Below are positions 11,612 to 31,168 of a stretch of DNA of 36,718 bases, in pieces. This stretch comes from Flavobacteriaceae bacterium (GTDB taxonomy: Bacteria; Bacteroidota; Bacteroidia; Flavobacteriales; Flavobacteriaceae). The stretch is from the NCBI GenBank assembly GCA_023257625.1, contig JALRBW010000062.1, forward strand, positions 1 through 36,718. Direction: 5' to 3'. A program made the translations under genes and the position numbers. Below the pieces are notes generated by a model. The model was not told where the DNA came from, did no database searches, and saw nothing but the letters and a program-made list of their open reading frames with translations. How positions within the stretch are numbered: the first letter of the stretch is position 1; every line of letters begins with the position of its first letter.

Positions 11612-11783
11612 ACAACACTGCCTGTATTAGTATTTTTTGGTAAACTCAACGAGCTTTTAATTAAAGGGGGTGAGTATCTTTTGTAAAAGCATGCTGCCTT
11701 GAGCAGATCCTTGATCAAAGGTGTAGCCCCAAACTTGTTTTACAGGAGTTTACACAAAACTTCAACTAGTACAGGCTTTTTTT
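11612..11783 (+). ncRNA. ssrS: 6S RNA, 6S-Flavo type (probable)
   Basis: The ~200-base gap between zapA and rny folds as a long rod. GCCTGTATTAG (11620-11630) pairs with CTAGTACAGGC (11766-11776) in an 11-bp closing stem with one G-U pair. Inside it, GTAAACTC (11640-11647) pairs with GAGTTTAC (11746-11753). Shorter helices near CCTTGA...TCAAAGG cap the rod. A run of seven T follows at 11777-11783, so the closing stem also makes a terminator. The position between zapA and rny matches flavobacterial 6S-Flavo RNA, which should bind RNA polymerase and dampen housekeeping transcription in stationary phase. The 5' end is approximate. Confidence 0.8.
11777..11783 (+). terminator. T-run terminating the 6S-like RNA
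   Basis: Seven T follow the 3' arm of the 11-bp closing helix (11766-11776). The stem spans the whole RNA rather than a short hairpin, so termination efficiency is uncertain and read-through into rny is possible. Confidence 0.5.
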
Positions 11784-22267: not shown

Positions 22268-23128
22268 GTGTTGAAAACTTCATTTTACAAGGCAGTTCAA
22301 TACATGTTATTGAGTACGTTATCTTTTGCATTTATGAATGCATTAGTAAAGTATCTAGTAGAATATTCAGCCTTTCAATTAGTTTTTTTCAGATCTGTAG
22401 GTTCTTTATTGATTACATATTCAATTTTAAAAGCCAAAAAAATCTCCCCTTTAGGGAATCAAAAAAAATTACTGTTAATTCGAGCAATAACTGGAGCTAT
22501 TTCAATGCTTTTGTTTTTTTGGAGTGTTCATTATATTACCATTGGAAGTGCCGTTACTCTCAGATATATATCTCCCATTTTTGCCGCACTTTTAGCAGTT
22601 GTATGGTTGGGAGAAAAAGTAAAACCAATTCAATGGGTGTTTTTTATTTTGTCCTTTTATGGGGTTTATTTGATAAAAAACTTTGATCCCTCAGATTCTG
22701 TTTTAGGAATAGTATTAGTATTGATAGCTGCATTTTTTTCAGCTATAGTTTATATGTTAATTTCAAAAATTGGAAAAAGAGATCATCCGGTAGTTGTTGT
22801 GCATTATTTTATGGCAATAGCAACAATTCTTGGTGGTATTGGGAGTATATTTTATTGGATCACTCCAACAATTAAAGATTTATTTTTATTAAGTAGTATG
22901 GGTTTCTTTGGTTATTTTGGACAATTGTTTATGACCAAGGCATTTCAAGACGGGGAAGCACATATGATTGCCCCCTTCAAATATGTAGAGGTTATATTTA
23001 CTTTGATTTTTGGAGTTTTTGTTCTATCTGAAGAATATAGTATTTATCATTTATTGGGGACAGCTTTTGTAATTATGGGACTCATCCTTAATGTACTATA
23101 TAAAACACAATTTAAAATAAAAGGCTAA
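22268..23128 (+). CDS. EamA/DMT family transporter
   Basis: A ~286-residue integral membrane protein of the drug/metabolite transporter superfamily with ten predicted helices in two EamA repeats. The first repeat runs from AVQYMLLSTLSFAFMNALVKYL to about residue 135 and the second from LGIVLVLIAAFFSAIVYMLISKI to the end. A long frame starts at 22145, but its first ~40 residues are not family-like and would overlap the TauE gene. I prefer GTG at 22268 (or TTG 22271); the first in-frame ATG with a complete helix is 22304. The substrate is unknown. Its stop overlaps that of the convergent DUF2911 gene. Confidence 0.83.
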   Translation: MLKTSFYKAVQYMLLSTLSFAFMNALVKYLVEYSAFQLVFFRSVGSLLITYSILKAKKISPLGNQKKLLLIRAITGAISMLLFFWSVHYITIGSAVTLRYISPIFAALLAVVWLGEKVKPIQWVFFILSFYGVYLIKNFDPSDSVLGIVLVLIAAFFSAIVYMLISKIGKRDHPVVVVHYFMAIATILGGIGSIFYWITPTIKDLFLLSSMGFFGYFGQLFMTKAFQDGEAHMIAPFKYVEVIFTLIFGVFVLSEEYSIYHLLGTAFVIMGLILNVLYKTQFKIKG

Positions 23129-23970
23129 ATGCCTTTCTTTGACCATTCTTCAATAGACTTATTATTCAAACGAACATAATCTTTATTTCCAGCTTTTTCA
23201 GCGAGTTCAAGCGATTTTTTAGAAGCTTCTATAGCGGCCTTAATTTCATTAAGATCTGCTAATATAAGCGCCTGTTGACGGTACATCCAGTATTTTCCGG
23301 GGTCTTGTTCAATGGCTTTGGCAATCCATTGTTTTGCAATTGTTAAATCACGATTTGTTTCTCTAAAGTATACAGCGGCGGCGTAATAATCGCCTGATTT
23401 TGGTGTTTCATTTAAGGTTTTTTCTATGGAGGCCATTGTTTTTGCATCAGTAGGAACTTCAAATGGAATTAAAATTTTGGTAGTTTCCCATTTAAATTCT
23501 AGTGTTGCCCCATTATTATTTATGTTTTCAATAGAAATTGTAAATGTTTCAACAGGAGATTCAAGAGTACTTGTTGGAGCTTCAATTGCAGCAGCAATCA
23601 TTTTAGAATCCCATTCTTCTGGTAGTCCAGAATTATCTGTTTTTGTATAAAAAAATACTTCCCACATACTAACACCAGGTCTTACATAAATGGCATAGGT
23701 TCCAGAAGCTAGTCCTTGATTTCCCATAATAATATTATCGCTAAAAGTTAGAGTTGTATTTCTATTAGCTCCAGCTCTCCATAGCTCTCCATAAGGCACT
23801 AACTCTCCCATTATTTTTCGACCACGCATTGAGGGTCTAGAATAATCGATTGCAATGTCAGTCAGCCCAACCTTTTGTTCAATCTTAGCTTGAGGACTGG
23901 GTTGTGGAGCCAGAATTTGAGCGTTAGCAAGTCCGTAGTACAGCATGATTAAGAAAATACTTTTTTTCAT
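23125..23970 (-). CDS. DUF2911 domain-containing exported protein
   Basis: A 281-residue protein with a Sec signal peptide (KKSIFLIMLYYGLANA, cleavage before QIL). The DUF2911 domain has its typical opening (IDYSRPSMRGRKI, then GELVPYGELWRAGANRNTTLTFSD) and covers residues ~25-170. The C-terminal ~90 residues are helical with TPR-like repeats (AKQWIAKAIEQDPGKYWMYRQQALILADL). The function of the domain is unknown. I use the ATG at 23970; a longer frame to 23997 would precede the signal peptide with polar residues. A promoter lies at 23995-24002. It ends overlapping the convergent EamA stop. Confidence 0.88.
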   Translation of the reverse strand: MKKSIFLIMLYYGLANAQILAPQPSPQAKIEQKVGLTDIAIDYSRPSMRGRKIMGELVPYGELWRAGANRNTTLTFSDNIIMGNQGLASGTYAIYVRPGVSMWEVFFYTKTDNSGLPEEWDSKMIAAAIEAPTSTLESPVETFTISIENINNNGATLEFKWETTKILIPFEVPTDAKTMASIEKTLNETPKSGDYYAAAVYFRETNRDLTIAKQWIAKAIEQDPGKYWMYRQQALILADLNEIKAAIEASKKSLELAEKAGNKDYVRLNNKSIEEWSKKGI

Positions 23971-23994
23971 TTTTTGGGATTTATTGATAAAAGT

Positions 23995-24002
23995 CAAATA
24001 TA
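23995..24002 (-). promoter_or_regulatory. Promoter for the DUF2911 gene
   Basis: On the minus strand this reads TATATTTG, preceded at 16 bases by TTG, close to the Bacteroidota TTG-N17-TAnnTTTG consensus. It ends 24 bases before the ATG at 23970. Confidence 0.6.
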
Positions 24003-24062: not shown

Positions 24063-24075
24063 TGTTTAATAAACA
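24063..24075. promoter_or_regulatory. 13-bp perfect palindrome upstream of the photolyase operon
   Basis: TGTTTA (24063-24068) and TAAACA (24070-24075) are exact inverted repeats around one base, 43 bases before the first gene of the operon. A half-site-like TTAAACA recurs at 24087-24092. It may be an operator for a regulator encoded elsewhere. No clear TAnnTTTG element is present for this operon, so a different sigma factor or an activator is possible. Confidence 0.4.
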
Positions 24076-24118
24076 GTGAAAATAATTAAACATTTTGTAG
24101 ATTTACTGAAAAATTACT

Positions 24119-24589
24119 ATGAAATTGTTTCGTTTGGAAACGGTTCAAAATCTTCCAATATCTATTTCTGAGGCATGGGTTTTTTTTTCTGATCCTAAAA
24201 ATTTAAAGGAGATTACTCCCTCATACATGGGATTTGAAATTATTAGCGGTGGAAATGACCCAATGTATCCAGGACAAATAATTCAATACAAAGTTACTCC
24301 TATTGCAAAAATTCCAGTGCGTTGGGTTACTGAAATTACTCATGTTGAAAAAGAAAAATATTTTGTAGATGAACAACGATTTGGACCCTATGCACTATGG
24401 CATCATAAGCATTTTTTTTCACCAATTAACAATGGAGTTCAAATGCGTGATTGTATTGATTATAAATTACCATTTGGATGGTTGGGTCAATGGTTTCAAC
24501 CTTTAGTTGTAAAGCCAAGACTAGAAGAGATTTTCAATTATAGAAAAAAAATATTAACAGAAAGATTTGGAGCCTATGAACATGCCTAA
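24119..24589 (+). CDS. SRPBCC (START/Bet v1-like) ligand-binding protein
   Basis: A 156-residue soluble helix-grip protein. The N-terminus FRLETVQNLPISISEAWVFFSDPKNLKEITP and the later VRWVTEITHVEKEKYFVDEQRFGPYALWHHKHFF are characteristic of the SRPBCC group often labelled CoxG or cell-division-inhibitor-like in marine bacteria. These proteins bind hydrophobic ligands in a central cavity; no catalytic residue can be assigned. It is the first gene of the photolyase operon and overlaps the short-chain dehydrogenase by 8 bases. A role with a cofactor, pigment or lipid is possible from context, but the ligand is unknown. Confidence 0.87.
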   Translation: MKLFRLETVQNLPISISEAWVFFSDPKNLKEITPSYMGFEIISGGNDPMYPGQIIQYKVTPIAKIPVRWVTEITHVEKEKYFVDEQRFGPYALWHHKHFFSPINNGVQMRDCIDYKLPFGWLGQWFQPLVVKPRLEEIFNYRKKILTERFGAYEHA

Positions 24590-25283
24590 TAACAAAAAAA
24601 TTCTCATAATAGGGGGCAGTTCTGGGATTGGGTTAGCCCTAACACGCTTGTTATCATCAACAAACTCTGTTTTTGTAGCAAGCAGAATGGCAACAGCCTT
24701 AGCATCTTTATCGATTACCCACATTCCTTTTAATGCTTCAATGGAAGAGTTACCTACAGAATCACTTCCAGAATATTTAGATGGATTTGTGTATTGTCCT
24801 GGCAGTATCAATTTAAGACCCTTTAAGGGTTTAACTAATCAAACTTTTGAAGATGATTTTAATATCAATGTAATGGGAGCTATAAAATCATTAAAGACAG
24901 TATTAGATCGTTTACAATCAAGTTCACAAGCCTCAGTCGTTTTTTTTAGTACTGTTGCCGTACAAACCGGAATGCCCTTCCATAGCTCAGTTGCTGCTTC
25001 TAAGGGGGCTATTGAAGGATTAACACGAGCCTTAGCTGCTGAGTTTGCACCAAAAATCAGGGTGAATGCAATAGCACCCTCATTGGTGAACACTCCTCTA
25101 GCAGAAAAATTTTTAAATAACGAATCAAAAATTGAAAAGGCAGGAGAACGCCACCCCTTAAAACGTGTAGGAAATTCTGAAGAAGTAGCTCAATTAACCG
25201 CTTTTTTATTGTCTGAAGCAAGTAGTTGGATTACAGGAAGTATAATTAAAATAGATGGTGGAATAGGAAGTTTGAAAGTGTAA
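24582..25283 (+). CDS. Short-chain dehydrogenase/reductase (SDR)
   Basis: A 233-residue NAD(P)-dependent oxidoreductase with a Rossmann fold. The cofactor motif is IIGGSSGIGLALTRL, the NAG-like position reads YCPGSINL, and the catalytic Ser and Lys lie in VFFSTVAVQTGMPFHSSVAASKGAIEG. The usual YxxxK tyrosine appears replaced: the residue before the expected spacing reads HSSVAASK, so catalysis may differ. The C-terminus ITGSIIKIDGGIG is classical. I use the ATG at 24582, nine bases after GGAG; ATG 24576 is possible. It lies between the SRPBCC gene (8-base overlap) and the photolyase (1-base gap). The substrate is unknown. Confidence 0.88.
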   Translation: MPNNKKILIIGGSSGIGLALTRLLSSTNSVFVASRMATALASLSITHIPFNASMEELPTESLPEYLDGFVYCPGSINLRPFKGLTNQTFEDDFNINVMGAIKSLKTVLDRLQSSSQASVVFFSTVAVQTGMPFHSSVAASKGAIEGLTRALAAEFAPKIRVNAIAPSLVNTPLAEKFLNNESKIEKAGERHPLKRVGNSEEVAQLTAFLLSEASSWITGSIIKIDGGIGSLKV

Positions 25284-25284
25284 A

Positions 25285-26586
25285 ATGGAAAAAATGGTTG
25301 TTTTTTGGTTTCGCAGAGATTTACGAATAGAAGACAATCAAGGTTTGTATAAAGCCTTAAGTGGAACCTTAAAAGTTATTCCAATTTTCATTTATGATAT
25401 TTCAATAATAGATAAACTAAATAAGACTGATGCGCGTCTTGATTATATAGAAATAGCTTTGGGGAGACTTGATATCGCTATGCAGAGGAACCAATGTACT
25501 GTGGGAAGATATCATGGATCCCCTGAGGCTATTTTTAAAAAATTAATTGCAGATTGGCCTATTGAAAAAGTAGTCTGCAATACAGATTACGAGCCATACG
25601 CTCGATCTCGTGATCAAAAAATTGGAGAATTACTTAAATCCCATGGTATCGGTTTTGAACAGTATAAAGACCAAGTACTTTTTGAAAAATCAGAGGTAAT
25701 AAAAGACGATGGTTCACCCTATAAAGTTTTCACACCCTATTCAAGAAAATGGAAATCTCTTTTAGGAACTCAACCCCTTATTCACTATCCATCTGAAGCC
25801 CATTTAGAGCAACTTAGTAAGGTTTCTTTGCCCAAATTAACATTAAGAGAAATAGGATTTACAAAAAGTACTCTAAAGCAACCTCAGGTAATATTAAATA
25901 ATGAAGTTATAGATAGATATGAAGCAACAAGAAATTTCCCAGCCTTAGATAAAACCTCACGAGTAGGAACTGCCCTCCGTTTTGGAACGGTAAGTGTAAG
26001 GAAACTGATAAAAAGTGCTGCCTGTAGACCCAATCTTACTTTTTTAAATGAACTAATATGGAGGGAATTTTTTATGCAAATAATATGGCATTTTCCTCAC
26101 ACCACTGAAAAGAGTTTTAAACCGCAATATGATCGGATTGAATGGCGGAACAATCCTGATGAATTTCAAGCATGGTGTCAAGGCAATACAGGCTATCCTT
26201 TAGTTGATGCGGGTATGCGACAGCTAAATGCAACCGGGTTTATGCACAATCGTATACGAATGGTAGCTGGTAGTTTTTTGTGTAAACATCTTTTAATTGA
26301 TTGGCGTTGGGGAGAAGCCTATTTTGCAGCAAAACTATTTGATTTTGAATTGTCAAGTAATGTTGGTAATTGGCAGTGGGTTGCTGGGTGTGGAGTAGAT
26401 GCGGCACCTTACTTTCGAATTTTTAATCCCTCTGAACAAATAAAGAAGTTCGATAAAAATCATGATTATATTCAACAATGGGTGCCTGAGTATCAAGAAA
26501 TGAGTTATCCGAAACCTATTGTGGAACATAAATTTGCTAGAAAGCGCTGTTTAGAGGTTTATAAGGAAGCTGTGGCTACACCATGA
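25285..26586 (+). CDS. phrB: Deoxyribodipyrimidine photolyase, class I CPD type
   Basis: A 433-residue flavoprotein that should repair cyclobutane pyrimidine dimers in DNA using blue light. The N-terminal photolyase domain starts [21 protein letters not shown] and binds an antenna chromophore. The FAD domain includes [33 protein letters not shown] (~residue 255), [24 protein letters not shown] and [20 protein letters not shown] (~365-382). These match class I CPD photolyases rather than animal-type cryptochromes. Its start is one base after the SDR stop, and its TGA overlaps the start of the DUF2256 gene as ATGA. Confidence 0.93.
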
Positions 26587-26723
26587 AATCTGTAAAAAAG
26601 GAGCACCTCCCTCAAAAAGTTTGTCTTCTGTGTCAGCGTCCTTTTACGTGGAGAAAAAAATGGGAAAGGGACTGGGAAAATGTAAAATATTGCAGTAAAA
26701 AATGCTCAGCAAAGAAAAAATAG
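26583..26723 (+). CDS. DUF2256 domain-containing small protein (zinc-ribbon-like)
   Basis: This 46-residue gene is easily missed. It begins ATGAAATCTG, overlapping the photolyase stop by ATGA, and ends TAG at 26723, inside the start of the cryptochrome gene (22-base overlap). The protein reads [19 protein letters not shown] in its first half and VKYCSKKC near the end. C14-x2-C17 and C37-x3-C41 form a probable metal site, and the RPFTWRKKW core is the DUF2256 hallmark. Homologues commonly neighbour photolyase/cryptochrome genes. The very basic charge suggests nucleic acid or protein binding. Function is unknown. Confidence 0.9.
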
Positions 26724-28015
26724 GAATCGTTTGGTTTCGGAATGATCTTCGTATTTCAGATCATCAGGCCCTTTTAAAAGCAACAGAAACCTGTTCAAAA
26801 GTTGTTTGTTTTTACTGTTTAGATGATGCTATGTTTTTACCTACTCCCTGGGGATTTAAAAAAACAGCAAAATTTAGAGTTCAATTTTTATTAGAAACAC
26901 TCCAGCAAATCTTACAAGATTTAGAGCAACTAAATATTACTTTAATAATTGAAACTGGAAACACTGTTTTAACACTTTCTCATTGGATTAAAAAACTATC
27001 GTGTACCGATTTATTTTTTCAAAAGGAATGGACACAAGAGGAAGCGATCACAGAAAATCAATTAAAAGCTCAAGTTAGCCCCTCAGTTCAATTTCATTCA
27101 TTTTACGATCAGTTTTTAATACATCCAGATGATCTGCCCTTTTCTGTGGAAGCTTTACCAAAAGTATTCACTGAATTTCGTAAGGCCATAGAAAAATTCA
27201 GCTCTGTTCGCCAGAGTATACCTCCAATTAATTCAAAATCTATAGAAAATAAGCTCGACTTTGTTTCGCCAGTACCTAGTATTAAAGACTTAGGATATTC
27301 ACCTTTTACCCAACATTTTCATTCAGCCTTTCCGTTCAAGGGAGGGTCAAAGGCTGCCTTAGAAAGAATGAATTCTTATTACTGGGAAACCCATAAGGTG
27401 TCTTATTATAAAAAAACAAGAAATGGATTAATAGGAAAAGATTATAGTTCCAAATTCTCTCCATGGTTGGCAAACGGATCTATTTCTGCACGTCAACTCT
27501 ATTGGGAATTAAAACGGTATGAATTAGAAGTTGAAAAAAACGAATCAACTTATTGGCTCATTTTTGAATTATATTGGCGTGATTTTTTCAAATACGTATC
27601 TCTAAAATTTGGGAATTCAATTTTTAAATTGTCTGGAATACTTCAGAAACAGTATGATTGGAAAAAAAGTTTAAATGAATTTCAGCGTTGGAGTATGGGT
27701 CAAACCTCTGAGCCTTTTGTAAACGCTTCAATGATAGAACTAAAGAAAACAGGGTGGATGAGTAATCGAGGAAGGCAAAATACAGCATCATATTTAGCGC
27801 GAAATATGAAAATAGATTGGCGTATTGGAGCCGCTTATTTTGAATCATTGTTATTGGATTATGATGTACATAGTAATTATGGAAATTGGATGTATGTAGC
27901 AGGTGTAGGAAACGATCCACGCGATAGAGTATTTAATGTTCGCCTTCAGGCAGAACGTTATGATCCCCATGGAAAATTTCAAAGTATATGGAATCAGAAT
28001 CAATTGTTTGAATGA
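26702..28015 (+). CDS. DASH-type cryptochrome
   Basis: A 437-residue blue-light flavoprotein of the Cry-DASH group, known for repairing dimers in single-stranded DNA and possibly signalling. The N-terminal domain starts [22 protein letters not shown]. Diagnostic FAD-domain segments are [58 protein letters not shown] and [16 protein letters not shown]. The end [19 protein letters not shown] (~residue 393 on) is a DASH signature. It overlaps the DUF2256 gene by 22 bases, and its TGA overlaps the next photolyase start as ATGA. Confidence 0.92.
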
Positions 28016-29550
28016 AACTACGTTTACTTTTAGGAGATCAGTTAAATGAAAAACATCCTTGGTTTTCAAGCATTTCTGAAGATATTCTATTTGTGATTAT
28101 GGAAATACGTCAAGAAACTGATTATGTGCTCCATCACATTCAAAAAGTGATCGCTTTTTTTGGCGCTATGCGGCAATTTTCAAAGCATCTAATTAAAGAG
28201 GGACATCAGGTGATTTACCTGTCTCTAGACCATCCAAAAAATACCCAGTCACTTATCCAGAATATTGAAAATATAATTATTACACATAACATTACCTCGT
28301 TTGAATATCAAGCTCCAGATGAATACCGGTTAGACGATCAATTAAAATCATTTTGTAAAAAATTATCAATTCCAAGTGAAATGGTAGATTCCTTTCATTT
28401 TTTAACCTCTCGTGATACGTTACGTGATTTTTACAAAGGAAAAAAACAACTGATTATGGAATATTTCTATCGTCAGATGCGTCGTAAATATCAAGTTTTG
28501 ATGGATGGTGAGCATCCGGAAGGAGGACAATGGAATTTTGATAAAGACAATAGGAACAGATGGAAGGGTGATCCTCCTGTTCCCCCTCATTATCTTCCCA
28601 AGGTTAATCAAGAGGAGCTACTTGAAATCAAAGCATTAATTGATCAGAATGGAGTTAAAACTTTTGGATCTTTTAAGGTATCTAATTTTGCATATCCGTT
28701 AAATAGAAAAGAAGCCCTTCTTCAGTTAGATTATTTTTGCACTTATTTATTACCGCACTTTGGCAATTATCAAGATGCTTTTCATACAGATGAAATATAT
28801 CTCTTTCATGCTCGTATTTCTTTTGCACTAAATGTTAAATTGATTAGTCCTTTGGAAGTAGTTAATGCAGCTATTGAACACTATCGAAACGAAAAAGGAT
28901 TGATAAATCTTTCACAGGTAGAAGGGTTTGTTCGACAAATTATAGGTTGGCGTGAATACATTCGAGGTATTTATTGGAAAGAAATGCCTAACTATCAAAA
29001 TTTAAATGTTTTAGGTAACCAGTTTCCCTTGCCTGACTTTTATTGGACAGCAAAAACTAAAATGAATTGTATGCATCATAGTTTGAAAAATTCATTAGAA
29101 AATTCCTATGCACATCATATTCAACGGCTTATGATAATTGGTAATTTTTCCCTTTTAGCTCAGCTCCATCCCGATGCAGTAGATCAATGGTATTTAGGGG
29201 TGTATGCAGATGCTATTCAATGGGTGCAGTTGCCCAACACTAGAGGAATGAGTCAATGGGCAGACGGAGGTATAGTGGCTACAAAACCCTATGTTTCTGC
29301 AGCGGCATACATCAGTAAAATGGGAAATTATTGCTCGGGTTGTTCCTATGATAAATCCAAACGTATTGGTGATGCTGCATGTCCCTTTAATAGTTTGTAT
29401 TGGAATTTTTTAGATGATAAAAAAGCCTATTTCAAGAACAATAACCGTATGGCTATGATGATACGCTTGCTTGAAAAAATTCCATCTGACGAAATTGTAG
29501 CAATCAAAGAACGTGCATTTGAAATTATGACAAGCCCAGATACTTTTTAA
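28012..29550 (+). CDS. Iron-sulfur bacterial cryptochrome/(6-4) photolyase (FeS-BCP)
   Basis: A 512-residue member of the prokaryotic FeS-BCP/CryPro group, whose known members repair (6-4) photoproducts and carry FAD, a ribolumazine antenna and a 4Fe-4S cluster. The start LRLLLGDQLNEKHPWF is family-typical. The cluster ligands are all present: C353 (KMNCMHHS), C441, C444 and C457 (NYCSGC, then AACPF). Their 88-3-13 residue offsets equal those of the ligands of Agrobacterium PhrB as I recall them (C350, C438, C441, C454). VEGFVRQIIGWREYIRGIYW is the FAD-domain core. It starts within the Cry-DASH stop (ATGA). Confidence 0.93.
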   Translation: MKLRLLLGDQLNEKHPWFSSISEDILFVIMEIRQETDYVLHHIQKVIAFFGAMRQFSKHLIKEGHQVIYLSLDHPKNTQSLIQNIENIIITHNITSFEYQAPDEYRLDDQLKSFCKKLSIPSEMVDSFHFLTSRDTLRDFYKGKKQLIMEYFYRQMRRKYQVLMDGEHPEGGQWNFDKDNRNRWKGDPPVPPHYLPKVNQEELLEIKALIDQNGVKTFGSFKVSNFAYPLNRKEALLQLDYFCTYLLPHFGNYQDAFHTDEIYLFHARISFALNVKLISPLEVVNAAIEHYRNEKGLINLSQVEGFVRQIIGWREYIRGIYWKEMPNYQNLNVLGNQFPLPDFYWTAKTKMNCMHHSLKNSLENSYAHHIQRLMIIGNFSLLAQLHPDAVDQWYLGVYADAIQWVQLPNTRGMSQWADGGIVATKPYVSAAAYISKMGNYCSGCSYDKSKRIGDAACPFNSLYWNFLDDKKAYFKNNNRMAMMIRLLEKIPSDEIVAIKERAFEIMTSPDTF

Positions 29551-29558
29551 GATAGAAT

Positions 29559-29837
29559 ATGAGAAAAAAGAAAATACATTTTAAAGAAGAACAAATTGAT
29601 CGAATTATTGAAATGGCTTGGGAAGATCGAACGCCCTTTGAAGCCATTCTAAATCAATTTGGATGTAAAGAGCAAGAAGTGATTAATATTATGCGACGAG
29701 AAATGAAACCTTCTAGTTTTAAAATGTGGAGAGAACGTGTTCAAGGTCGAGCAACCAAGCATCAAAAGCTACGCCCCGAGGAAGTAGAAAGATTTAAATG
29801 TTCACGTCAACGTTCAATCTCAATGAATAAAAAATAA
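29559..29837 (+). CDS. TIGR03643 family protein
   Basis: A 92-residue basic protein. The segment KEEQIDRIIEMAWEDRTPFEAI followed by GCKEQEVINIMRREMKPSSFKMWRERVQGR is the TIGR03643 pattern: a helix-turn-helix-like first half and a conserved central MxPSSFKMWRERV core. The C-terminus is Lys/Arg-rich. It lies eight bases after the FeS photolyase stop, so it closes the operon. Genes of this family are repeatedly found beside photolyases and cryptochromes, but the role is unknown. The basic charge and helical character fit DNA or RNA binding (inference). Confidence 0.9.
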   Translation: MRKKKIHFKEEQIDRIIEMAWEDRTPFEAILNQFGCKEQEVINIMRREMKPSSFKMWRERVQGRATKHQKLRPEEVERFKCSRQRSISMNKK

Positions 29838-29854: not shown

Positions 29855-31168
29855 TTAGACAGTTACTCTTTTAATTTTAGCACCAATAGCGCGTAAGCGT
29901 TCATCTATGGCTTCATAACCACGATCAATTTGCTCAATATTGTGTATTGTACTGTTCCCTTGTGCGGAAAGGGCCGCTATTAAAAGCGAAACTCCAGCTC
30001 GAATATCGGGAGAGGTAAGGGTAGCTCCTTTGAGAGAAGATTGAAAATCAAGACCGATAACAGTTGCTCTATGGGGATCACACAAAATGATTTTAGCACC
30101 CATATCAATAAGTTTATCAACAAAAAACAAACGGCTTTCAAACATTTTTTGGTGTATCAAGACGCTACCACGAGCTTGGGTGGCAACAACTAGAACAATA
30201 CTTAACAAATCAGGAGTAAATCCTGGCCATGGTGCATCAGCTATGGTTAATATAGAACCATCAATAAAATTTTGTATTTCATATCCTTTAGTATGCGGTG
30301 GGATATACATATCATCCCCTTTTTTTTCTATGGTAATCCCTAATTTTCGAAATACATTTGGCATTTGACCCAAGTATTCCCATCTTACGTTTTTGATTGT
30401 TAACTCGCTTTGTGTCATTGCAGCAAGACCCACCCAACTTCCTATTTCAATCATATCGGGGAGCAAAGTGTGTTCTGTTCCGTTTAAGGATTGAACCCCT
30501 TCAATGGTAAGTAAATTAGAGCCTATTCCAGAAATTTTTGCACCCATTCGATTTAGCATATTACATAGCTGTTGTAAATAGGGTTCACAGGCAGCATTGT
30601 AAAGGGTAGTAGTCCCTTTTGCCATAACAGCGGCCATAACTAAATTAGCTGTACCTGTAACAGAGGCTTCATCAAGTAATAGTGAAGTTCCTATTAATTC
30701 AGAAGCTTCTACACTGTAAAAAGCATCCTCTTGATTGTATTTGAATTTTGCCCCTAATTGAATAAACCCATCAAAATGAGTATCAAGTCTTCTCCTACCA
30801 ATTTTGTCACCTCCGGGTCTTGGAATGCTTCCTTTTCCGTAACGTGCTAAAAGGGGGCCTACAAGCATAATTGAACCACGTAAACTTTTCCCTTCAAGAT
30901 TAAAAGCTTCTGAATTGAGGTAGGATAAATCTATTGAATTTGATTGAAAAGAATAACTACCAGGAGAAAGATGCGTTACTTTGACTCCTAAATTTCGTAG
31001 TAGTTGAATTAGCTTATTAACATCTACAATGTCAGGCAGATTATTAATTAAAACGGGTTCTGCAGTTAATAATACGGCACATAAAATTTGAAGCGCTTCA
31101 TTTTTTGCTCCTTGAGGTGTAATTGATCCTTTTAATGTATGTCCACCTTCAATAACAAATGACTCCAT
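29855..31168 (-). CDS. murA: UDP-N-acetylglucosamine 1-carboxyvinyltransferase
   Basis: A 437-residue enzyme of the first committed step of peptidoglycan synthesis: phosphoenolpyruvate transfer to UDP-GlcNAc. The N-terminal GAKNEALQ motif carries the conserved Lys-Asn pair, and the two-domain EPSP-synthase fold spans the protein. The mobile loop reads PRPGGDKIGRRRLDTH, so the catalytic position, Cys115 in E. coli, is Asp (D121, codon GAC at 30808-30806). Asp is known there in naturally fosfomycin-resistant MurA. It follows the DUF4290 gene by three bases as an operon. Confidence 0.95.
   Translation of the reverse strand: MESFVIEGGHTLKGSITPQGAKNEALQILCAVLLTAEPVLINNLPDIVDVNKLIQLLRNLGVKVTHLSPGSYSFQSNSIDLSYLNSEAFNLEGKSLRGSIMLVGPLLARYGKGSIPRPGGDKIGRRRLDTHFDGFIQLGAKFKYNQEDAFYSVEASELIGTSLLLDEASVTGTANLVMAAVMAKGTTTLYNAACEPYLQQLCNMLNRMGAKISGIGSNLLTIEGVQSLNGTEHTLLPDMIEIGSWVGLAAMTQSELTIKNVRWEYLGQMPNVFRKLGITIEKKGDDMYIPPHTKGYEIQNFIDGSILTIADAPWPGFTPDLLSIVLVVATQARGSVLIHQKMFESRLFFVDKLIDMGAKIILCDPHRATVIGLDFQSSLKGATLTSPDIRAGVSLLIAALSAQGNSTIHNIEQIDRGYEAIDERLRAIGAKIKRVTV

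Follow-up and report, generated by a model that had tools for sequence, protein, structure and literature searches.

A 36,718-nt stretch of DNA from a Flavobacteriaceae bacterium (contig JALRBW010000062.1 of assembly GCA_023257625.1, hereafter the window) carries an island of seven genes at 24119-29837, in which photolyases of three classes stand together with four other genes. A first-pass annotation had read this island as a light-repair operon with overlapping genes and embedded candidates for photolyase accessory factors. Window gene calls and family profile searches bore out the layout, with all genes on the + strand and in the order first noted. The first gene of the operon encodes an SRPBCC-like protein of 156 amino acids (24119..24589), whose match to Polyketide_cyc (E 0.0077) is below the Pfam cut-off; it had no Pfam match at E ≤ 0.001 and its best solved structure (E 0.38) was not significant. 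A short-chain dehydrogenase/reductase (SDR) follows (24576..25283; PF13561, E 4.6e-39), with its start set at the ATG at 24576, which is preceded by GGAG, rather than at the TTG at 24567. The next genes encode a class I/III-type photolyase of 433 amino acids (25285..26586; PF00875 and PF03441), a DUF2256 protein of 46 amino acids (26583..26723; PF10013, E 3.4e-21, 75.6 bits vs. a cut-off of 25), a Cry-DASH of 437 amino acids (26702..28015; TIGR02765, 481 bits vs. 317), an iron-sulphur (FeS)-type photolyase of the FeS-BCP/CryPro type with 512 amino acids (28012..29550; PF04244, E 2.6e-72), and a DUF2805/TIGR03643 protein of 92 amino acids (29559..29837; TIGR03643, 123.3 bits vs. 66.6). Counted from the ATG at 24576, the junctions measure -14, +1, -4, -22, -4, and +8 nt, and overlaps at most junctions were indeed found (four of six). 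An exact copy of an operator-like inverted repeat, TGTTTAA-N16-TTAAACA (24063..24092, + strand), lies 26 bp upstream of the first start codon; it had gone unnoticed in the first-pass annotation.

The three photolyases share one operon and fall into three classes, as had been proposed. The first matches the solved structures 1owl, 1dnp, and 4u63 with 273, 263, and 260 bits, and, when aligned with the enzymes of E. coli and Anacystis for cyclobutane pyrimidine dimers (CPDs), proved to share their WQW and MHNR-RM stretches. These stretches presumably play a role in CPD enzymes, and their conservation suggests that the protein repairs CPDs. As it remained below the cut-off of TIGR03556 (class I, 8-hydroxydeazaflavin (8-HDF) type; 339 bits vs. 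884.6), it is named class I/III-type only. Cry-DASH, with 1np7 as solved relative (E 2.4e-117), is expected to repair CPDs in single-stranded DNA. The FeS-type photolyase is closest to 7ykn (515 bits, E 1.4e-153), and alignment with PhrB and 7ykn revealed that all four FeS cysteines (C353, C441, C444, and C457) are kept; a bacterial (6-4) photolyase activity is predicted.

Five Flavobacteriaceae loci (L087, L095, L098, L107, and L114) show the gene order of the window. Since these five also keep the same downstream genes, matched by the lengths of their open reading frames (ORFs) and for L087 by sequence starts too, the island is not a chance arrangement. All five contain one extra photolyase (493 amino acids in L087), placed after the FeS enzyme and ahead of DUF2805, that the window does not have; the window thus holds a shorter form of the island. 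L087 is cut before the SRPBCC gene and has a 452-amino-acid ORF between DUF2256 and DASH, while the DUF2805 ORF of L114 was masked by the overlap filter. A longer island was found in Polaribacter porphyrae (L110), with photolyase labels assigned with our own profiles. It begins with a flavin reductase, a DUF2867 epimerase, DUF2256, DASH, PF04244, and a 495-amino-acid photolyase, continues with an unknown protein of 144 amino acids, DUF2805, GTP cyclohydrolase I, an SDR, and glutathione peroxidase, and ends with TspO, SRPBCC, and a 433-amino-acid photolyase. Homologues of the SRPBCC-like protein stand ahead of an SDR-photolyase pair or a photolyase in relatives. By eye, crt-like genes were seen beside another island (L109).

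No function has been assigned to the DUF2256 and DUF2805 families, and neither has a significant solved relative by sequence. In 15 aligned DUF2256 sequences, residues C14, C17, C37, C41, F21, W23, R24, K26, W27, and W31 are invariant, and a CxxC...CxxxC pattern is present. DUF2256 looks like a four-cysteine, zinc-finger-like protein and may bind zinc. The family has been placed in the TRASH clan (PF10013; PMC4047054), and the structure model (mean predicted local distance difference test score 82) gave MYND, YacG, TRASH, and FCS fingers among its top, non-significant fold matches. The DUF2805 model shows four confident helices within residues 10-61 and a low-confidence tail; its fold matches are mostly DNA-binding helix-turn-helix (HTH) proteins, including LsrR, TrpR, GcrA, and sigma region 4, none of them significant.

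The distribution of these families was surveyed in 148 Bacteroidota genomes (83 genera, one phylum), which were searched for DUF2805, PF04244, DUF2256, PF03441, and DASH. Of these genomes, 46 hold both DUF2256 and PF04244, two hold only DUF2256, three only PF04244, and 97 neither. Two weak DUF2256 matches had been dropped, one below the cut-off (G011) and one above it at 27.7 bits that covers 22 positions only (G082). Among the 85 genomes with a printed family label (17 families), DUF2256 and PF04244 agreed in 80, compared to a mean of 57.4 in within-family shuffles, and none of 100,000 shuffles reached the observed value. In six of the seven listed genera with variable PF04244, DUF2256 tracked PF04244; in g22 it did not. 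No fusion of DUF2256 or DUF2805 with a photolyase occurred among the matches listed for the 148 genomes, in which the open frames reached at most 153 and 135 amino acids. In 14 control genomes, PF04244 was present in Caulobacter, Synechococcus elongatus, and Haloferax, and DUF2256 only in the first two.

Single-strand photolyases sharpen this picture. DASH was above the cut-off in 35 of the 148 genomes, and a small photolyase with the FAD (flavin adenine dinucleotide) domain first, i.e., in reverse order, occurred in at least 14, with only PF03441 recognised in L019. An intact DASH or a reverse-order small photolyase, the latter hand-picked among the matches listed, was counted as a single-strand enzyme. 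Among the matches listed, DUF2256 accompanied 43/43 genomes with PF04244 and a single-strand enzyme, 3/6 with PF04244 only, 2/5 with a single-strand enzyme only (5/11 with just one of the two), and 0/94 with neither, or 2/94 with the dropped matches restored. The DASH genes adjoining DUF2256 in G077 and G139 (L013 and L035) look broken; if these two genomes, picked by hand among the matches listed, are counted as positive, the strata become 45/45, 1/4, 2/5, and 0/94. For other photolyases, a set of 80 genomes was chosen among the matches listed, a PF03441 match being taken as full. Of the 33 genomes whose only photolyases are other PF03441 enzymes, none carries DUF2256 (1/33 counting the dropped match in G011), and a tie of DUF2256 to photolyases in general was rejected on this basis. 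At 33 of 48 DUF2256 loci a photolyase was present within 300 bp, and DUF2256 lay within 5 kb of PF04244 in 21 of the 46 shared genomes.

Two kinds of PF04244 enzyme were distinguished in an alignment of 84 proteins: all four cysteines are present in 57 (support 0.97), and the other 27 (support 1.0) lack every one of them and also show a ten-residue deletion. Among the 49 genomes with PF04244, 33 have the FeS type and 16 an enzyme lacking all four cysteines, and DUF2256 is present in 31/33 and 15/16 of them, respectively. Because DUF2256 accompanies both alike, iron-sulphur delivery by this protein is unlikely and was rejected as its role. A reverse-order photolyase was found in 11/16 FeS-less and 2/33 FeS-type genomes among the matches listed.

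DUF2805 is more loosely linked to photolyases than DUF2256. PF04244 is present in 37 of 41 canonical carriers, and DUF2805 is absent from 12 of the 49 PF04244 genomes. The two lie within 5 kb of each other in 9 of 37 shared genomes, a count that keeps G021 and G025, which hold a divergent paralogue only and are left out of the 41 carriers. The best 80 of at least 590 confirmed DUF2805 genome loci were compared (79 bear titles of Bacteroidota groups and one, L113, that of Sphingomonadales); a photolyase lies in the flanks (up to 8 kb) of 44, and DUF2256, DASH, and PF04244 are all present at 26. The divergent paralogue was also seen ahead of a protein of ~618 amino acids in L052, L062, L079, and L080. 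A random distribution of the small genes relative to photolyases, against which the first-pass annotation had set its accessory-factor proposal, was not what the Bacteroidota showed, the association being strong for DUF2256 and less so for DUF2805.

Both families also occur on mobile elements. A minimal DUF2805/DUF2256/PF04244 module was found on a plasmid of Acinetobacter as well as on an IMG/VR contig. At least 29 of 53 plasmid records with DUF2256 (E ≤ 1e-4) also match PF04244, as judged from 60 listed of 87 PF04244 records. The two genes are ≤1 kb apart on at least 19 plasmid records, which include many near-identical plasmids of Acinetobacter. Among viral contigs, 78 loci encode DUF2805 and 37 encode DUF2256, with a photolyase in the flanks of 1/78 and 2/37; L172 and L245 share one contig, which holds the DUF2805/DUF2256/PF04244 trio. 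With 77 and 35 loci devoid of a flanking photolyase, a strictly photolyase-dedicated role is weakened, and calling these proteins photolyase accessory factors perhaps describes them too narrowly; in phages they might have another use or work on enzymes of the host. Four tblastn queries against 50,697 records of known phages gave no match at E ≤ 0.001. In PHROGs, DUF2805 had no match and DUF2256 two weak ones (E 0.0009, HNH endonuclease family; E 0.0035, unknown family). By eye, thymidylate synthase-, ribonucleotide reductase-, quinone reductase-, and NUDIX-like genes were noticed near viral DUF2805/DUF2256 (L193, L211, and L246).

The inverted repeat ahead of the island is expected ~0.0015 times in the window by base composition. 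By eye, the motif or its core was recognised upstream of the islands in the window, L095, L098, and L114. In the window and 160 Bacteroidota loci, selected for DUF2256, DUF2805, or PF04244 and not de-duplicated, the core GTTTAA-N16-TTAAAC occurred 48 times in intergenic DNA at a spacing of 16, five times at 17, and never at 13, 14, 15, 18, or 19. A less biased test is the count in 25 whole genomes of the family, which yielded 64 exact 14-base sites in 19 genomes, compared to two of the reversed pattern. Of the 64 sites, 63 were recovered as distinct; in six of these no gene starts within 160 bp, another six were flagged as lying inside long ORFs, and the scan of downstream proteins covered the others. 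The 67 proteins starting within 160 bp were classed by Pfam and NCBIfam scans, which replaced a stricter classing by regular expressions that had left 40/63 sites unassigned. They include 11 Fasciclin, eight TetR_C_23, five CrtI, three HtpG (two of the three opposite a TetR gene), one FolE, one CrtW, and one photolyase. A TetR_C_23 gene heads a run of ABC1 and DUF2256 in L014, and also in L109 to judge by the ORF pattern. Fasciclin proteins, the commonest family behind the exact operator (e.g., L365:2122-3495), may form a light-regulated surface set. A gene of ~142 codons without Pfam match (L110 and L371) lies behind the operator and before DUF2805 in many Flavobacteriaceae islands (L110:7534-7968).

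The genome of the window (1.93 Mb, 90.9% complete) contains a rhodopsin gene and blh, and a gene for a MerR_1 plus B12-binding_2 protein of 312 amino acids (L339) beside crtB (SQS_PSY). In another locus (L354), a MerR plus B12-binding gene has an exact site 1 bp upstream of its ORF. Among 11 rhodopsin loci of the family, the window's genome included and a weak rhodopsin match (L337) excluded, a site with at most one mismatch was present in five and with at most two in six. With at most one mismatch, five loci had a site at spacing 16, compared to two in all across 16 other spacings. In the window's genome, a one-mismatch site lies between rhodopsin and blh, and its sharing with the operon suggests that light use and the repair of sun damage may be switched on together.

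Taken together, we favour, with moderate confidence, a multi-lesion photorepair operon of a rhodopsin-bearing flavobacterium in a probable light regulon of the LitR/CarH type (MerR plus B12-binding). The regulator would occupy TGTTTAA-N16-TTAAACA (24063-24092) in the dark, together with related sites near crt, folE, rhodopsin/blh, and the regulator gene itself; on illumination it would leave these sites, allowing the operon to be expressed. The three photolyases would then act on three substrates, i.e., the class I/III-type enzyme on CPDs in duplex DNA, DASH on CPDs in single strands, and the FeS type on (6-4) products. DUF2256 and DUF2805 are probably helpers on the nucleic-acid side, not in cofactor delivery, and could hold, present, or mark damaged or single-stranded DNA, or regulate. 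The SRPBCC-like protein and the SDR appear to be part of a broader set of light or photo-oxidative genes, and may serve the light response via membrane, redox, or pterin chemistry. A more comprehensive scheme is put forward only tentatively: DUF2256, as a general zinc-finger partner, would feed damaged or single-stranded DNA to PF04244 and single-strand photolyases, phages with DUF2256 or DUF2805 and without a photolyase would use these proteins to recruit host photolyases to phage DNA, and in marine flavobacteria one operator would turn on repair, carotenoids, and proteorhodopsin together.

Several observations weigh against a light-regulated photorepair operon with nucleic-acid-side helpers. 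Fifteen of the 48 DUF2256 loci lack a recognised photolyase within 300 bp, and at 11 there is none in the 6 kb flanks, some of which end at a contig edge; moreover, the 148-genome survey covers a single phylum. In viral records (32 with DUF2805 and 18 with DUF2256), which may be fragments or misfiled, PF03441 was found in 0/50. With regard to the operator, Fasciclin, the top downstream family, is no obvious light gene, and five of the 11 rhodopsin loci deviate from the site by at least three mismatches. The window's own rhodopsin site is not exact, the litR-like gene of this genome has a two-mismatch site that overlaps the ORF start, and two of the three exact 14-base sites in the genome precede genes without an evident light role (by eye). 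Allowing one mismatch, the 12-base core is not enriched there either (17 vs. 57 reversed). The Pseudomonas LitR site, T(G/A)TACA-N12-TGTA(C/T)A (PMC9758184), resembles the island's N16 motif only at its ends, and this class II operator was not found at the operon promoter, where the 121-bp upstream region has only one TATACA half-site (23999). As the sites differ, another regulator could bind, e.g., the TetR_C_23 protein, which often has the site at its own gene.

Other roles for the small proteins have to be weighed against help on the nucleic-acid side. If DUF2256 and DUF2805 helped to load FAD, the antenna, or the [4Fe-4S] cluster into photolyases, the cysteine-rich DUF2256 protein, the overlap of its gene with both neighbours, and the GTP cyclohydrolase I gene in the related island would make sense. 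We nevertheless regard cofactor delivery as very improbable, as DUF2256 is about equally frequent with FeS-less and FeS enzymes and is missing from the genomes with only other photolyases (apart from the dropped match), although photolyases share FAD. The antenna of DASH is folate. A different antenna, 6,7-dimethyl-8-ribityllumazine or 8-HDF, is used by PF04244 enzymes (PMC9178010). Furthermore, an FeS-BCP produced in E. coli contained both FAD and the cluster (PMC9178010), and E. coli is not among the control genomes matching PF04244 or PF10013. The accessory-factor proposal is supported in the non-random choice of partners and weakened with regard to cofactor delivery.

Alternatively, the HTH-like DUF2805 and DUF2256 might be small DNA- or protein-binding regulators of the light response, borrowed by phages. 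The occurrence of both on viral records without PF03441, the resemblance of DUF2805 to LsrR, TrpR, GcrA, and sigma region 4, and that of DUF2256 to YacG and TRASH fingers point in this direction, but the fold matches are at E > 0.3, both genes often lie inside photolyase operons, and the MerR/B12 protein is a simpler owner of the operator; we consider such a role possible, though unlikely. It is also rather doubtful that the small genes, SRPBCC, and SDR merely share a light-exposed lifestyle and co-regulation and take no part in DNA repair. TspO, glutathione peroxidase, and FolE in the related island and the crt-like genes beside L109 would agree with such hitch-hiking, as would the frequent lack of linkage of DUF2805 and DUF2256 to PF04244 (linked within 5 kb in the 9/37 and 21/46 shared genomes given above). 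Against this explanation speak the lack of DUF2256 in the other-photolyase genomes (0/33, or 1/33 with the weak match), the minimal module on the Acinetobacter plasmid and the IMG/VR contig, and the close spacing of DUF2256 and PF04244 on plasmids, many of them near-identical.

The island is flanked by genes for DUF2911 (23125-23997) and MurA (murA, 29855-31168), both on the - strand. Scans of the island for sigma-70 promoters and terminators performed no better than on shuffled sequence. Elsewhere, the window contains a 6S-Flavo RNA (11644-11751) and partial 23S plus 5S rRNA (within 1-952).

For two families without function, the co-occurrence of DUF2256 provides a concrete hypothesis with a built-in control, namely genomes with other photolyases. 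The operator is a testable candidate for the element that coordinates photorepair with proteorhodopsin and carotenoids in flavobacteria, and additional regulon members are predicted from it (Fasciclin proteins, the TetR-ABC1 kinase operon, and the ~142-amino-acid gene). In the literature searched, which largely excludes subscription papers, no link of DUF2256 or DUF2805/TIGR03643 to photolyases and no title on a flavobacterial light regulator of proteorhodopsin or photolyase was found.

Among known systems, the FeS-BCP/CryPro enzymes (PhrB, 4dja; 7ykn) share PF04244 and the four FeS cysteines with the island enzyme, from which no sequence difference was found. FeS-less PromaPL-type enzymes and reverse-order Phr6/Phr7 photolyases are known from picocyanobacteria (PMC9426592); similar types occur here in Bacteroidota, beside DUF2256, the likeness of the reverse-order photolyases to Phr7 being one of architecture. 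The LitR regulon of Pseudomonas comprises light-induced phrB-SDR-FAD oxidoreductase-ufaM, PME7070-cryB, and folM-folE-folX (PMC9758184). Common to both systems are a photolyase and an SDR in one operon, light-induced there, folE as a regulon member (a probable one here), the co-transcription of an uncharacterised gene with a photolyase-family gene (cryB), a MerR-type regulator (a candidate in the window's genome), and a TGT...ACA inverted repeat; the class II LitR of Pseudomonas works with a LOV protein, and three photolyases in one operon are found in the island only (PMC9758184). Synechococcus PCC 7335 has a UV-B-induced photolyase operon, and its report names two earlier reports of photolyase operons (PMC9649867). 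Its genes overlap as in the island, but it consists of two photolyases without small proteins. A cluster of photolyase genes that is enriched among marine Flavobacteriia bearing proteorhodopsin was already known (PMC5932025), in hosts that have rhodopsin like the window's genome; DUF2256, DUF2805, and a shared operator do not appear in the passages compared. To these clusters, the present analysis adds the distribution of DUF2256 and the shared operator, both of which are testable.

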